Assembly: GCF_029229925.1 (NCBI RefSeq)
Contig: NZ_CP107254.1
Coordinates: 2,604,001 to 2,668,000 of the forward strand
DNA length: 64,000 nt
Direction: 5' to 3'
DNA from: Halorhabdus sp. BNX81
GTDB taxonomy: Archaea > Halobacteriota > Halobacteria > Halobacteriales > Haloarculaceae
In this document: in pieces, positions 7,595-15,044 of the stretch
Position numbering within the stretch: position 1 is the stretch's first letter
Layout of the letters: the number at the start of each line of letters is the position of its first letter
Program-made: the position numbers and the translations under genes
Notes under the pieces: model-generated
Databases searched by the model: none
The model's input: the letters and a program-made list of their open reading frames with translations, nothing else
Told to the model about the DNA's origin: nothing

Positions 7595-7812
7595 CTCGGG
7601 GGTGTTCGAGCAGTTTCCGCTTAAGCGTGACGGGGCCCCGATCGGGGATGCAAGCACGTGTTTTTCCGAAAGGAAATGATAAACATTGTAGTTTGGGAAC
7701 AAGTTTAACAGATTTATATAATTAGAAGATGGCACCAATTGATGCACATATTCTTGGAAGTATAGCCAATACCAGTACGTTTAAGCACGTGTCTTTGTTA
7801 GAGGGTCACATC

Positions 7813-9648
7813 ATGTCAGACGGAAAAAAGCTGAACCGACGAAAATTCCTCGCGGCGACCGGTGCCGCGACGGCGAGCATTGGGCTGGCCGGGTGTGGTG
7901 ACGGTGAAGAGACCGAAGAGACGGACGAACCGGAGGAAACGTCGAGCGACACCGAATACGAGCCGCCGAGTTCGTTCCCGTACGGGATCAACGAAACCAA
8001 CGTCGACGAGGCCCAGCGGGTGATGGAGGAGGCGGGCTACGGACCTGACAACCGCTTCGATCTCGACTGGTTGCAGTACCAGAGCGGTGCGTGGGAGGAG
8101 ATGGCGGACTCGATCAGTGTGCGCCTGGAGTCGGCGTACATCGACATGAGCATCAGCGACTCGGACTTCGGGGCGCTGCTGGAGACCACTCAGAGCGGGA
8201 ACCACGAGGCCTACACGCTCGGGTGGGTCGCCGACTATCCTGCGGCCCAGAACTTCCTTCAGCTGGTCGATCCGGAGAACACGATCTACGACGCCGAGAG
8301 CTATACGCCAAACGGCGAGACGCTTTTCTGGTCCGAGGACGCCGAAGGCGACGAGGAGATCCGCCAGTACGTGATCGAGCAGTTCGATCGGATCCAGAAC
8401 AACCCGGAGCTAACCGACGAAGCCCAGAGCATCCGGGAGGAAGCGACGCTCAACATCGAGCGGGCGCTGTGGGACGCGGCCGCCCTGCTCCCGGTCTATC
8501 ACACCGTCGATCAGCTGTTCTGGTACGACCACGTCGACCTCGACGCGCCCGGCGGGATGGGACCCTCGCGGGCGAAGGCGAGCAACTTCGTCAACGCGAT
8601 CGAAGACGACGACGTCCTCAACGGCCATTCCGGCACCTTCAGTTCCCTGGACCCGATCGCCTCCGGGAACACGGCCAGCGGGGGCAAGATCATGGACATG
8701 TTCGACGCGCCGATGAACTACGTCAACGGGACCACGGAGATCGAACCCCTCATCGTCGAGGACTACTCGGTCAGCGAGGACCTCACGGAGTACGAGTTCA
8801 CGCTCAAGGAGGGTATCCAGTTCCACGGTGACTACGGCGAGGTCACCGCCGCCGACGTCGTCTACTCGTTCCGCCGGCTCATCGAGTCCAGCAACTCCAC
8901 GAACACGTACTTCCCGCTGTCGGTACTCGGGATCGAACACGAGACCGACGACGACGGCAACGTCGTGCCGGACTCGACGGCCGTCGAGGCGACGGGCGAC
9001 TACACGTTCACGGTCTCACTCTCCAGCCCGTTCGGGTACGCGCTCGAAGTGTTCGCCTATTCGGCGTTCTCCGTCGTCCCGGAGGGCATCGTCGGCGACA
9101 TCGAGGGTCACGACGGCGAGATGGAGTGGTCGGAGTTCTCGACGAACCCGGTCGGCTGTGGCCCGTTCGTCTTCGAGTCCTGGCAGGAGGGCAACGGTGG
9201 CTCCTTCCAGGCGACGGCCTTCGAGGACTACCACGGCGAGGCCGCGGACTTCGACCTCCACGACACGATCATCACCGAAGACTCCGCACAGTACAACTAC
9301 ATCCTGAACCAGAGCGCCGACTTCGGCGTCATCCCGACGCCACAGTACGATCCGGAACTGGTCACCGAGGAGTCGACCGAGGACAGCCAGGTCCTGGGAA
9401 CCTACGGCCCGTTGGACAACGGGGAGACACTGAACATGTCGTCGACGCCGGGCATCAACACCTACTACATCGGCTTCCACATGGAAAAGGTGCCAAAGGC
9501 CGTCCGCAAGGCGATGGCCTACGTGCTCACCCGCGAGGACTTCGTCGAAAGCGTCTTCAAGGGTCGCGGCGAGGCGGCCTACCACCTGCTCCCGAAGCAG
9601 GTCTTCCCCGGCGGGGCCGAGGGCTACGAGTCGAACTACCAGGGATAA
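7813..9648 (+). CDS. oligopeptide/dipeptide ABC binding lipoprotein, circularly permuted
   Basis: A 611-residue family 5 solute-binding lipoprotein. Residues 8-28 form a Tat-lipoprotein signal (LNRRKFLAA... then LAGC, Cys 28), followed by an acidic linker. The domain order is reversed. Residues about 55-265 (FPYGINETNVDEAQRVMEEAGY to GGMGPSRAKASNF) match the part that normally ends these proteins. Residues about 272-611 (GTFSSLDPIASGNTASG, EFTLKEGIQFH, AADVVYSFRRL, KAVRKAMAYVLTREDFV) match the part that normally begins them. The protein stops at GYESNYQG, just where the first block would usually continue. It is the first gene of the transporter operon and would capture peptides at the outer membrane face. 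The open frame is intact, with no frameshift. Confidence 0.9.
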   Translation: MSDGKKLNRRKFLAATGAATASIGLAGCGDGEETEETDEPEETSSDTEYEPPSSFPYGINETNVDEAQRVMEEAGYGPDNRFDLDWLQYQSGAWEEMADSISVRLESAYIDMSISDSDFGALLETTQSGNHEAYTLGWVADYPAAQNFLQLVDPENTIYDAESYTPNGETLFWSEDAEGDEEIRQYVIEQFDRIQNNPELTDEAQSIREEATLNIERALWDAAALLPVYHTVDQLFWYDHVDLDAPGGMGPSRAKASNFVNAIEDDDVLNGHSGTFSSLDPIASGNTASGGKIMDMFDAPMNYVNGTTEIEPLIVEDYSVSEDLTEYEFTLKEGIQFHGDYGEVTAADVVYSFRRLIESSNSTNTYFPLSVLGIEHETDDDGNVVPDSTAVEATGDYTFTVSLSSPFGYALEVFAYSAFSVVPEGIVGDIEGHDGEMEWSEFSTNPVGCGPFVFESWQEGNGGSFQATAFEDYHGEAADFDLHDTIITEDSAQYNYILNQSADFGVIPTPQYDPELVTEESTEDSQVLGTYGPLDNGETLNMSSTPGINTYYIGFHMEKVPKAVRKAMAYVLTREDFVESVFKGRGEAAYHLLPKQVFPGGAEGYESNYQG

Positions 9649-9910: not shown

Positions 9911-10999
9911 ATGAACCGTCTGTTGTATCTCTTCAAGCGCCTGTTGCTCGCCGTCCCCGTGTTCCTGTTCGGGATCACAATGAGTTTCATGATCCTGTAC
10001 CTGGGACCGATCGACCCCGTTTTAAACATCCTCGGACAGGACGCGACGCCGGAAGACATCCACCAGCTCAAGGTCGCGCTCGGGATCATCTATCAGGACG
10101 GTTCGCAGGTCCCGCTGTGGTCACAGTACCTGAAAGTGCTCACCGACCTGGTGACGTTCGACTTCGGGCAGTCCTGGATCATCCAGCGCGGGACGCCGGT
10201 CGGCGAGCTCATCCTGAACCGGATGCCGGTGACGCTGTGGCTCGGGTTCTGGTCGGTCGTCGTGGCGCTCGCGGTGGGCATCCCCGGCGGACTGTACGCC
10301 GGCCTCCGAGCCAACACCTGGCGGGACTATCTCACCTCGGGTGGCGGGATCATCTGGCGGGCGATGCCGAACTTCTGGCTCGCCGTGATGATCTCCGGGC
10401 TGCTCTCGGCTGGCGGGGCCCTGTATTTCTACCAGGACTTCCTCATTTCGACCGATGTGATCGGGACGTCGCCGGCAGTCGGGAACATGCTCGGCCCCAT
10501 CGATCTCTTCACCCGCATCGAGGGGTTAGAAGCGACGATCACGGGTCCGAAGCTGACGAACATCGCCATCGCGATCAAGTGGATCCTGCCGGCGGCGCTG
10601 GTGCTTGGCTCGTCGTCGATGGGTAACGAGATCCGGATCGGGCGGACCGCGGTCCTAGAGAGCATCAACTCGAAGTACGTCGAGACGGCAAAGGCCAAAG
10701 GCGTCTCCGGGCGGCGAATCGTCACCAAACACGTCGGCCGCAACGCCATGATCCCGCTCCTCCCGATCATCATGGGCGAGTTCTACCTGTTGATCGGCGG
10801 GTCGGTGCTCGTCGAGCAGGTCTTCTCGATCCGGGGGCTCGGGAACATGTTCTTCCGCGGGATCCTCGGTCCGGACATCCCGCTTGTGATGGCACTCGTG
10901 TTCCTGTTCATCATCGTTCAGATCACGGTCAACATCACGCAGGACATCCTGTATACGTTCATCGACCCACGGATCTCGCTTGAGGATACGGAGAGGTGA
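9911..10999 (+). CDS. dppB: dipeptide/oligopeptide ABC transporter permease (DppB type)
   Basis: A 362-residue inner permease. It opens with the classical DppB start MNRLLYLFKRLLLAVPVFLFGITMSFMILYLGPIDPV. It has about six helices, and the cytoplasmic EAA loop that contacts the ATPases reads YVETAKAKGVSGRRIVTKHVGRNAMIP. The segment WGGSVLVEQVFSIRGLG-like near the C-terminus is also conserved (GSVLVEQVFSIRGLGNMFF). A central insertion (about 165-230) is longer than in bacterial DppB, as is usual in haloarchaea. ATG 9911 is chosen; the 262-base gap from the binding-protein gene has no other gene. The permease gene downstream starts 6 bases after its stop. Confidence 0.93.
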   Translation: MNRLLYLFKRLLLAVPVFLFGITMSFMILYLGPIDPVLNILGQDATPEDIHQLKVALGIIYQDGSQVPLWSQYLKVLTDLVTFDFGQSWIIQRGTPVGELILNRMPVTLWLGFWSVVVALAVGIPGGLYAGLRANTWRDYLTSGGGIIWRAMPNFWLAVMISGLLSAGGALYFYQDFLISTDVIGTSPAVGNMLGPIDLFTRIEGLEATITGPKLTNIAIAIKWILPAALVLGSSSMGNEIRIGRTAVLESINSKYVETAKAKGVSGRRIVTKHVGRNAMIPLLPIIMGEFYLLIGGSVLVEQVFSIRGLGNMFFRGILGPDIPLVMALVFLFIIVQITVNITQDILYTFIDPRISLEDTER

Positions 11000-11005
11000 T
11001 ATTCG

Positions 11006-12616
11006 ATGTCTGATACTCCACCGACCACGACGCGTGAGGAGTTGACTGGGTACGAGACCGAAGCGCTCCGGACGCGGATCGCCGAGTCCCCGCGGCCGTT
11101 TCTCCGGTGGGCCGCGGTGCTCATCGCGTTGATCGCCGTCGAGTTAGGGACGTACGCGGCGCTCGCGGTCGCCCTGCTCGAGCGGGTCTTCGTCGGGATC
11201 ACGGCAGCCGTCGAGTTGCTCGTCGGCGTCGTCTCGCCGGGGGCTGCCGAGAGCGTTCTGGACGTCCAGGCCGGCGGGTCCGAATTCCTCGTGGGACTCG
11301 CCGACGGTGCGGGCTCGATCCCGACCCTGTTCGGCCGGGGAACCATCCCCAATCAGGGGTATCAACTCGGACCGGGGGCTGGCTGGGACGGGACAGTGCT
11401 GGGGATCGAGCCCCCGGCAATCATCGCGGACCTCCCGGTTGTGTTCGATTGGAAAGGAACCTTTCTCGGCCTCGAACCCGCCCTCGCGTGGGCGTTGCGA
11501 TTCACGCTTATCGTCGCCTACGCGCTGTTTCTGGCGTACTGGCTGTTCCGCGGCTGGAAGGTCTACCGTGAGCACTACCGCCAGGCCGACTGGACGCCGA
11601 CCGACGACATGGTCAGCCGACTCAAGGGCCACCGCTGGGGGCAGTTCGGGATCCTCGTCCTCCTGCTGTATCTGACGATGGCGATCTTCGGGCCGGCGCT
11701 CGGCCCGACGACTGTCGAGCAGAACATCAAGAGTTCCTACAGCTTCGAGGTCAACTACTTCGACACCGAGACCGGCGAAGTCGAGTCCATCCCCGTCGGC
11801 GACGCCAACTTCAATTCGAAATCCAAGGGCAGCGGGGAGAACGTCGGGCCGATGACATACGACGACTATGGGCGGTTCCACCCGTTCGGGACGCTCGACA
11901 ACGGACGTGACCTGTTCACGTTCCTCATGGCCGGGGCACGTATCACCATGATCGTCTCCGGCATGGCGATCGGGCTCGCGGCGCTCATCGCCGCCGTGCT
12001 GTCGATGGTCTCGGCGTACTACGCCGGCTCGATCGACCTCACGATCCTCACGACCGCGGATGGGATCGTCTCGGTCCCGCGGTTGATCCTGTTAATCATG
12101 GTGAGTGCCGTCTTCGCGAACCACTGGCTCGGTGGGATTCTCAACGGCGGGTTCATCCTCGCGCTGGTGTTCGCCTTCACCACGTGGCCGCTGCTGTGGC
12201 GGGCCGTGCGTGGCCCGGCGCTGCAGGTCGCCCAGGAGGAATGGGTCGACGCGGCCCGGAGCTTCGGCCAACGGCCCCGCACGATCATGCGAAAGCACAT
12301 GCTGCCGTACATCGTCGGCTACCTGCTGGTGTACGCCTCGATGACGACCGGCGGGATCATCATCAGCCTCTCGGCGCTGTCGTTCCTGGGCAACGGCCTC
12401 GGGATCAGCGCGCCGACGCCCGCGTGGGGACGCGCTATCTCGGCCGGCCAGGACTACGTCGCCACCTCTTCGTGGCACATCTCGCTGTTCTCGGGGCTGA
12501 TCATCGTGGTGCTGGTCACCGGCCTCAACGCCTTCGGCGACGGGATCCGTGACGCGATCGACCCCGAGACCGAAAGCGCCGAGGCCGAGGAAGCGGCCGC
12601 AGGAGGTGGTGCGTGA
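11006..12616 (+). CDS. dppC: dipeptide/oligopeptide ABC transporter permease (DppC type) with long N-terminal extension
   Basis: A 536-residue permease, much longer than the usual 290-350. Residues about 1-200 are an extension with two or more extra hydrophobic segments (AAVLIALIAVELGTYAALAV, and ALRFTLIVAYALFLAYWLF). The canonical DppC starts near RLKGHRWGQFGILVLLLYLTMAIFGP. Its EAA loop is WVDAARSFGQRPRTIMRKHMLPYI, and the C-terminus has ISLSALSFLGNGLGISAPTPAWG and FGDGIRDAIDPE. It follows dppB by 6 bases, and its TGA shares a base with the ATG of the first ATPase gene, so it is translationally coupled. Confidence 0.92.
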   Translation: MSDTPPTTTREELTGYETEALRTRIAESPRPFLRWAAVLIALIAVELGTYAALAVALLERVFVGITAAVELLVGVVSPGAAESVLDVQAGGSEFLVGLADGAGSIPTLFGRGTIPNQGYQLGPGAGWDGTVLGIEPPAIIADLPVVFDWKGTFLGLEPALAWALRFTLIVAYALFLAYWLFRGWKVYREHYRQADWTPTDDMVSRLKGHRWGQFGILVLLLYLTMAIFGPALGPTTVEQNIKSSYSFEVNYFDTETGEVESIPVGDANFNSKSKGSGENVGPMTYDDYGRFHPFGTLDNGRDLFTFLMAGARITMIVSGMAIGLAALIAAVLSMVSAYYAGSIDLTILTTADGIVSVPRLILLIMVSAVFANHWLGGILNGGFILALVFAFTTWPLLWRAVRGPALQVAQEEWVDAARSFGQRPRTIMRKHMLPYIVGYLLVYASMTTGGIIISLSALSFLGNGLGISAPTPAWGRAISAGQDYVATSSWHISLFSGLIIVVLVTGLNAFGDGIRDAIDPETESAEAEEAAAGGGA

Positions 12617-13710
12617 TGTCCCGTGAACGCACCGCCGAGAGCGCACGCGGCGAGGGCGACCCGCTACTCTCGGTCCGGAACCTCCAGACGGTCTTCCATA
12701 CCGACCGGGAGACGATCCGAGCGATCGACGATGTGAGTTTCGACGTCTACCCCGGCGAGACGGTCGGTATCGTCGGCGAATCGGGCTCGGGCAAGAGCGT
12801 CACTGCTCGCTCGATCATGGGACTAATCGACTCCCCTGGCGAGGTACTCCCGGAGTCGTCGATCAACTTCAACGGCCAGGAGCTGACCGCCCTCTCCGAC
12901 GCCGCCTATCGCGAGGTCCGCGGGAGTGGTATCGGCATGGTGTTTCAGGACCCCCAACAGTCGCTGAACCCCGTCTACACGATCGGCAATCAGATCAGGG
13001 AAGCCCTAGAGATCAACCGGGGTATCACGGGCGCGGAAGCGACCGCGGAGGCGACCGACCTGCTCGAATCGGTCGGCATCCCCGACGCGAAGCGTCGCCT
13101 CGACGAGTACCCCCACGAGTTCTCCGGCGGGATGCGCCAGCGCGCCGTCATCGCGATGATGCTAGCCTGTGAACCCGACCTGCTGATCGCCGACGAGCCG
13201 ACGACCGCCCTGGACGTGACCATCCAGGCGCAGATTCTGGACTTGCTGAAAGAGATCCAGGCGGAACGCAATCTCGCGATCCTCTTTATCACCCACGATA
13301 TGGGCGTCATCGCCGACATCTCCGACCGCGTGAACGTGATGTACGCGGGCGAGATCGTCGAGAAGGCGTCGGTCGAGAACCTCTTCGAGCGCCCGAAACA
13401 CCCCTATACGCGGGCGCTGATCGAATCGATCCCGGGCGAGCACTCCCGCGAAGAGGGGCTCAACACGATCGAGGGAGAGGTGCCAACGCCCAACGCGCCG
13501 GCGGACCACTGCCGGTTCGCCCCGCGATGTCCGCAGGCGTTCGGGGCCTGCGACGAGATGGCCCCCCAGCACATCGACGTCGGCGAGACAATCGAACACA
13601 CGGCGTCGTGTCTGCTGTACCCGGAAGGGAAGACGGAGGCGGAACGGCTCGAACACCACAGCGCACTTGCGAGCGGTGAAGACATCGAAACGGAAGGTGA
13701 GCACCGATGA
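12616..13710 (+). CDS. dppD: peptide ABC transporter ATP-binding protein (DppD type)
   Basis: A 364-residue ATPase. The Walker A motif is GESGSGKSV, the signature FSGGMRQRAVIAMMLACEPD, and Walker B is LLIADEPTTALD followed by the H-loop FITHD. The C-terminal oligopeptide-transport extension has the cysteine pattern CRFAPRCPQAFGAC...ASCLLYP, which in relatives binds an Fe-S cluster or stabilises the subunit. I take ATG 12616 (overlap TGATG with dppC); the GTG at 12613 is also possible. It pairs with the next gene to power peptide uptake. Confidence 0.94.
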   Translation: MSRERTAESARGEGDPLLSVRNLQTVFHTDRETIRAIDDVSFDVYPGETVGIVGESGSGKSVTARSIMGLIDSPGEVLPESSINFNGQELTALSDAAYREVRGSGIGMVFQDPQQSLNPVYTIGNQIREALEINRGITGAEATAEATDLLESVGIPDAKRRLDEYPHEFSGGMRQRAVIAMMLACEPDLLIADEPTTALDVTIQAQILDLLKEIQAERNLAILFITHDMGVIADISDRVNVMYAGEIVEKASVENLFERPKHPYTRALIESIPGEHSREEGLNTIEGEVPTPNAPADHCRFAPRCPQAFGACDEMAPQHIDVGETIEHTASCLLYPEGKTEAERLEHHSALASGEDIETEGEHR

Positions 13711-15044
13711 GTGGCGACCTACAACGGACTGGCCAGGTGGCCGAGACCGGCGAGACGCTGATCGAGGTCGAGAACTTAAAGAAGCACTACGGCGGTGGCG
13801 GCGTCTTCGCCAATCCGTCGGTAAAGGCCGTCGACGGCGTGAGCTTCTCGATCAAACGTGGGGAGACGCTCGGCCTCGTCGGCGAGTCCGGGTGTGGGAA
13901 GAGTACGCTCGGCCGGACGCTCGTCCGCCTGGAGGAGGCCACCGAGGGGACGATCTCCTTCGACGGGACCGACATCACGACGCTGTCGGGCGAGGACCTG
14001 AAAGACTGGCGTCGCAACGCCCAGATGGTCTTCCAGGACCCCGAGTCCAGCCTCAACGACCGGATGACCGTCGGGGAGATCATCCGCGAGCCGCTGGACG
14101 CCCACGACTGGCGGACCAAACAGGAGCGCCAGAAGCGCGTGCTGGACCTGTTGACGTCGGTGGGGCTCCGGGAGGAGCACTACTATCGCTATCCCCACCA
14201 GTTCTCGGGCGGCCAGCGCCAGCGGGTCGGCATCGCGCGGGCGCTCGCTCTCGAGCCGGAGTTTCTCGTCCTCGACGAGCCGGTCAGCGCGCTGGATGTC
14301 TCCGTCCAGGCGAAGATCATCACGCTGCTCGAGGACCTCCAAGAGGAGTTCGACCTCACGTACCTCTTTATCGCCCACGACCTCTCGGTCGTGCGGCACA
14401 TCTGTGATCGCGTTGCGGTCATGTACCTCGGGAAGATCATGGAGCTCAGCGACACCGAGGCGGTCTACGAGAACGCCCACAACCCCTACACGCGGTCGCT
14501 CCTCTCCGCCATTCCCCGGCCCGACCCCTCGAGGTCCTCTCACCGGATCACGCTGCCGGGAACGCCACCCAGCCCGCGGGATCCGCCGACAGGCTGTCAG
14601 TTCTCGACCCGGTGTCCGGCCAAGATCCGGCCGGAGGGCTACGAGGACGTCGACGAGGCGGTCTGGGACGCGATCGAGCGCTTCCGGGAGGTCGTCCGCG
14701 AACGATCTCGGATGAATCTCGGGGCAGTCGACCGGCTCAGACGACAGCTCGGTAACTTCTCGGCGTACGACGACATCGACGAGACAGTCACGGACCTCTT
14801 TGGCGACCTCGACGTCCCTGCGGACGTTCGCGAACAGATCGAGACCGCCGCCGAGTTGGTCAAGGACGGGCGGCCCGCGGAGGCACGGAGTCACCTCGGA
14901 GAAGTATTCAACGGCGTCTGTGACCTCCAGCGGCCGGCGTTTCACCCGGTCGGGGAGAACAACCATATGAGCTACTGCCACCGTCACGACGCCGAATACG
15001 AGGACGTCGACCCAGTCCTCGACCACCGAACCCGTGACGCCTAG
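13707..15044 (+). CDS. dppF: peptide ABC transporter ATP-binding protein (DppF type) with C-terminal insertion
   Basis: A 445-residue ATPase, the partner of DppD. It has Walker [10 protein letters not shown], signature [21 protein letters not shown] and Walker [12 protein letters not shown]. The C-terminal Cys motif begins [11 protein letters not shown] (near residue 297) but is interrupted by an acidic helical insertion of about 110 residues before it resumes at [24 protein letters not shown]. Such insertions are seen in haloarchaeal homologues; their role is unknown. It overlaps dppD by an ATGA junction and overlaps the next small membrane gene by 11 bases. Confidence 0.93.

Follow-up and report, generated by a model that had tools for sequence, protein, structure and literature searches.

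The permuted gene and its operon

The window, i.e., the whole 64,000-nucleotide stretch of Halorhabdus sp. BNX81 DNA that was analysed, holds at positions 7813-9648 an open reading frame for 611 amino acids without internal stop, also open in the same frame from an upstream ATG at 7729. Its product is a Tat-lipoprotein that belongs to family 5 of the solute-binding proteins (SBP_bac_5, PF00496) and has its parts cyclically permuted; this gene and all features given below lie on the + strand unless noted. Some 90 bases ahead of the start codon, the sequence reads as a TATA-box-like TTTATATAAT (7713-7722), a candidate archaeal promoter element, and a sigma-70-type scan flagged the TATAAT ending at 7722. 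The product starts with a twin-arginine signal peptide and lipobox LAGC, with Cys28 as the lipid anchor site (residues 1-28, 7813-7896; RRKFL..LAGC, recognised as a pattern only), followed by an acidic low-complexity linker that leads from the lipobox Cys to the first folded block (residues 29-53, 7897-7971). Then comes block B1 (residues 54-173, 7972-8331), which normally follows block A2 and corresponds to PF00496 profile positions 248-360, and block B2 (residues 191-255, 8383-8577), normally the C-terminal end of the protein. A new 15-residue joint, ASNFVNAIEDDDVLN (residues 256-270, 8578-8622), connects this old C-terminus to the old N-terminus, namely block A1 (residues 271-379, 8623-8949; SLDPIAS...), which normally starts the mature protein. 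The loop DDGN (8950-8961) separates A1 from block A2 (residues 384-606, 8962-9630; profile to position 261), after which a new C-terminus (..SNYQG, residues 607-611) and the stop codon occupy 9631-9648.

The gene is the first of a dppBCDF-type operon. It adjoins two permeases and two oligo_HPY ATPases (9911-15044), as in the Dpp/Opp importer layout: a DppB-type permease (9911-10999; PF00528, PF19300), a DppC-type permease (11006-12616; PF00528, PF12911 OppC_N), and the DppD-type (12616-13710) and DppF-type (13707-15044) ATPases, each with PF00005 and PF08352 oligo_HPY. Operon context and conservation indicate that the gene probably supplies a dipeptide/oligopeptide-type ABC importer with its membrane-anchored binding protein. 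The DppA equivalog NCBIfam NF043070 scored 77.8 bits, below its cutoff of 1005, and therefore gives no ground for naming the substrate as dipeptide.

Profile evidence for the swapped order

Run on the whole protein, PF00496 gave two matches (E 1.8e-52, 179.1 bits vs. a curated cutoff of 32.4) in the reverse of the normal N-to-C order, profile 248-360 preceding 1-261. The earlier note had read the protein as circularly permuted from its letters alone and had proposed aligning the two parts separately, expecting the first to hit the profile's end and the second its start, and regarding failure of the first block to match the C-terminal profile region as fatal to the idea. No such failure occurred: residues 52-152 matched profile 248-360 (E 1.4e-9, 38 bits when scanned alone), and residues 309-608 matched profile 1-261 (E 2.9e-42 when the second half was scanned alone). 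The genome-wide family search likewise placed both stretches in swapped order inside one 640-codon frame with no stop. The note's block coordinates, its Tat-lipoprotein signal (RRKFLAATG...LAGC) and its GYESNYQG end were all correct.

The modest 38-bit match of the N-terminal stretch might suggest that two unrelated half-length domains had fused by chance and that the permuted family-5 likeness was spurious, a reading that is extremely improbable given that the two stretches match complementary parts of one profile, that the B blocks are 31-34% identical to the C-terminal half of Natrialba proteins of normal order, and that a doubled query (below) spans all rotations as single full-length matches at E 1e-110 and better.

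Conservation of the order

Orthologues collinear with the window protein over residues 1-611, at 56-80% identity, occur in the same genus, in other genera and in other families. Five of the six other genomes of the genus have the same order end to end at ~79% identity, as do Halobacterium sp. KA-4, Halosimplex salinum and others at 56-70%, and it also turned up in many further genera, both in the family and elsewhere in the order. Several of the assemblies with this order are complete or near-complete, and several consist of one or two contigs. Among the genes of this order in Halorhabdus, dN/dS was ~0.12-0.26, so that the window-type protein is under purifying selection. An assembly error, frameshift or chimeric gene model is conceivable in any one genome, and one of the rarer rotations described below (the L059 type) is known from one genome only; for the window protein, with its single stop-free frame, its intact downstream operon and dozens of independent assemblies that show its order, the chance of such an artefact is negligible, and conservation refutes it equally for the second rotation described below (T2). 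Because the order is conserved across so many independent assemblies, chance or misassembly is untenable as its cause. The earlier note's statement that the frame is open rather than frameshifted holds. A split gene was also considered as an explanation and rejected.

Four rotations among relatives

The first sign of a further rearrangement was that some relatives matched window residues 189-606 in one piece, which is impossible for a protein of normal order; reading them revealed a second rotation and then a third. With A1-A2-B1-B2 as the normal order, we denote the window order B1-B2-A1-A2 as T1, B2-A1-A2-B1 as T2 and A2-B1-B2-A1 as T3; the T3 cut falls in the loop corresponding to DDGN of the window protein. 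We searched ~400 genomes of the order with a doubled query, the mature window protein placed twice end to end, such that the start of the hit reveals the order: normal proteins matched from ~228 to 776, T1 from 1 to 566, T2 from 144 to 699 and T3 from 338 to 900. Block profiles (A1, A2, B1, B2) run on 135 distinct relatives found each block exactly once per protein and only cyclic orders, with all four rotations occurring (64 normal, 34 T1, 34 T2 and 3 T3). In the permuted relatives 12-21 residues bridge the old termini, and this joint lacks the low-complexity linker that follows the lipobox; the T1 chain has been reopened just before the stretch starting YPYG or FPYG. Homologues in other orders, single-copy blocks and joined old termini, the marks of a natural permutant, are all present. 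The earlier note had proposed a single permuted protein; the permutation stands, and we now find it to be one of several independent permutations in family 5, which that note had not recognised.

The operon setting is shared: DppB comes next and in the same direction at 33 of the 34 T1, 31 of the 34 T2 and all three T3 loci, and of the four loci without a DppB call, two had too little sequence to tell. The lipobox Cys pattern is present in 34 of 34 T1 proteins. The Asp aligned with the GWTGD motif of DppA is likewise kept in 34 of 34 T1 proteins, and is found in all T3 and most normal proteins; the same position is Ser in 33 of 34 T2 proteins (e.g., the T2 clade member L061 1186-3174), and the main T2 clade may therefore bind a different solute.

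Two permuted relatives have unusual architectures. One T1 protein (L186 1536-3527 (+), genome G163) has a stretch of 31 residues in the A1-A2 loop, where 4 is usual; this insert lies exactly at the T3 cut position, suggesting that the loop tolerates large changes. A 975-residue ORF (L081 864-3788 (+), genome G009) combines a T2-permuted binding protein with a degenerate protein-kinase-like domain (PF00069, 24.6 bits, below cutoff) and a transmembrane-like stretch.

Because the PF00496 model ends before block B2, T2 proteins resemble ordinary members in domain annotation, and the only hint of their order in the Pfam match is its unusually late start.

A fourth cut site

Outside the window, the same genome encodes a second permuted family-5 binding protein (L239 7970-9745 (-), G000:C1 ~379969-381744), in which a B-type region comes first and the C-terminal end (residues 261-587 of 591) matches PF00496 profile 1-284. 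Its cut, T4, lies after a helix and a DDDGRL hairpin. This gene adjoins a PAP2-like gene, and there is no dpp operon there. The T4 order was found in all homologues among the matches listed, in 141 of 243 genomes. The subfamily is widespread in haloarchaea, sometimes as neighbouring copies, and extends to Alphaproteobacteria: a Nitratireductor plasmid protein encoded in an ABC operon has the T4 order, and its alignment to the T4 family covers 492 columns with a probability of 100%; one-piece full-length T4 matches came from Maritalea, Microvirga, Neorhizobium, Roseomonas and Ketogulonicigenium plasmids as well as from many haloarchaeal ones. The T4 reading follows from the C-terminal position of profile 1-284, from the matches of L240 to DppA and OppAIV (its residue 202 corresponds to mature DppA residue 1, and its residues 48-162 to OppAIV residues 386-496) and from the full-length alignment of T4 proteins to L240. 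The haloarchaeal T4 N-terminal part, when compared by hhalign with the alignment of normal haloarchaeal proteins, gave a weak match (E 0.013, Prob 3.4%). One genome of the window's genus (G006), the sole sampled one without an orthologue of the window protein, has a T4 protein.

Number of independent origins

We built an unrooted tree of de-permuted sequences with IQ-TREE, setting the blocks in one register (89 rows, 513 columns). The order labels need at least six changes on this tree, T1 arising once, T2 twice and T3 three times. T1 forms one clade (100/96), allowing for one nested T3 protein, L059. T2 consists of a main clade and the distant L086 (genome G143), which sits among normal proteins; a single T2 clade was rejected (AU p 1.4e-9). 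Besides L059 inside T1, the T3 proteins are L130, beside the normal L131, and L132, placed elsewhere on a long branch whose placement is unsure; joining L130 with L132 was rejected (AU p 1e-4). These AU p-values are somewhat favourable, because the groups had been seen on a fast tree before testing. A tree of a separate gene, the DppB permease, placed L086 with the normal L098, L059 within T1, and L130 with the normal L131 and L192; permuted operons group there with the same normal relatives, and so the order changed while the operon stayed. Provisionally, the normal order was taken as ancestral, because DppA and all other solved relatives among the matches listed have it. Family 5 has been independently permuted at least six times, probably seven.

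How the permutation may have arisen

The most likely starting event would be an in-frame tandem duplication of the binding-protein gene, after which the second copy would lose its signal peptide and linker as well as its trailing block, and the first copy its leading block behind the signal. The window lineage would have undergone one such change (T1), and relatives would have been cut independently, twice at T2 and three times at T3, with T4 arising in a different subfamily.

L059 bears on this route. Its A2 and B1 blocks are separated by 20 residues, against a median of 4-5 in normal, T2 and other T3 proteins; the stretch, at the old T1 cut, ends in GSDFEGLS and is followed by GYPYSPNE, and the linkers that follow the lipobox in T1 relatives end in EEFEGHD-SYPYSPGE, EAFGGLD-AYPYSANE and PESFDGLD-AYPYSANE. 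L059 looks like a tandem fusion of two T1 copies that was cut a second time, i.e., a permutation of a permutation, and its linker remnant supports the route of duplication, fusion and truncation. The new order could also have come about by gene fission with the halves re-fused the other way round, or through a DNA circle that was excised and reintegrated. The end products of all these routes are alike, and no tandem-fused intermediate occurs among the 135 relatives; neither does a split gene, in a search aimed at long single frames, and the linker that L059 retains between its old C-terminus and its old N-terminus is what a tandem fusion would leave behind, so that we consider these other routes unlikely. 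Our main reading, with a probability of roughly 0.88, is that the window encodes a permuted family-5 binding protein, likely of tandem-duplication origin, whose relatives have been cut repeatedly and independently.

Fold, anchoring and selection

The permuted protein would be expected to adopt the usual two-lobe flytrap fold, bind a peptide-like solute and feed DppBCDF; the fold is inferred because the ends lie close together in this family and the reopened sites lie between conserved blocks. AlphaFold2 models from shallow alignments (9-12 sequences) had a mean pLDDT of 38.1 for the permuted protein (12-row alignment) and 38.9 for the normal Natrialba control.

Permutation would take the lipid anchor away from the old N-terminus and put it on a different face of the protein. 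The fullest reading, of family-5 proteins as closed rings reopened in at least seven independent permutations at four cut sites, some reused and one of them second-generation, in which the new N-terminus functionally re-sites the anchor, we put forward tentatively, at slightly less than even odds. For neutrality the odds appear evenly balanced: with adjacent ends, opening of a suitable loop would simply be tolerated, and recurrence would reflect only frequent duplication of binding-protein genes. Neutrality competes with selection for a moved anchor and leaves the permutation as such untouched. Normal and permuted relatives indeed share one operon type, and the T4 protein of Nitratireductor has an ordinary signal with no lipobox (judged by eye), so that re-anchoring cannot be the general reason. 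Selection might instead be suspected from the recurrence of few sites, the T2 and T3 cuts each having been used more than once, and from the age and wide distribution of the T1 and T2 clades, although both are compatible with neutrality.

Comparison with known systems

Most natural circular permutations are single, old events that are known from distant pairs. By contrast, the four orders found here, among relatives in the same operon context, form a natural series for comparing folding, ligand closure and anchoring across similar sequences, and one from which each step of permutation can be read, from tandem fusion and linker loss to the new start and stop. Annotation pipelines lump these differently ordered proteins under one name, T2 especially, and the naturally tolerated permutation sites could guide the design of binding-protein sensors.

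Escherichia coli DppA has blocks A1-A2-B1 in the normal order, and once the window protein is rotated the two align collinearly over 486 columns (23% identity). By alignment, the cuts fall on mature DppA numbering at ~118-125 (T3), ~315-324 (T1) and ~430-440 (T2). On the DppA structure the native ends would sit side by side in domain I, with the T3 loop falling in domain II and both the T1 and the T2 site in domain III. The DppA/OppA-type proteins (PF00496, cluster C; E. coli DppA PDB 1DPE, 1DPP) share with the window protein the sequence family, block number, dppBCDF-type operon and a secretion signal, but DppA is soluble, periplasmic and in normal order, whereas the window protein is a circularly permuted Tat-lipoprotein. 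Closer at hand, a normal haloarchaeal protein of Natrialba (L040 6863-8659) has the same operon layout and is ~45% identical to the window protein across the A blocks and ~33% across the B blocks, but has the order A1-A2-B1-B2.

In the open-licence literature we found no permuted family-5 or haloarchaeal binding proteins, nor any permuted case beyond TpMglB-2 (Tp0684) of Treponema pallidum, and family 5 does not seem to have been reported there as repeatedly permuted. TpMglB-2 is a circularly permuted glucose-binding protein, for which its authors proposed anchoring as a reason for permutation (PMC4990184). Like the window protein it is a naturally permuted, lipid-anchored ABC solute-binding protein conserved in a clade, but it belongs to the Type I/cluster B sugar-binding family and has one cut site, and its permuted part is so poorly conserved that a different gene source was considered possible (PMC4990184). 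The family-5 case differs in that all of its blocks are strongly homologous and the chain has been cut independently at several sites.
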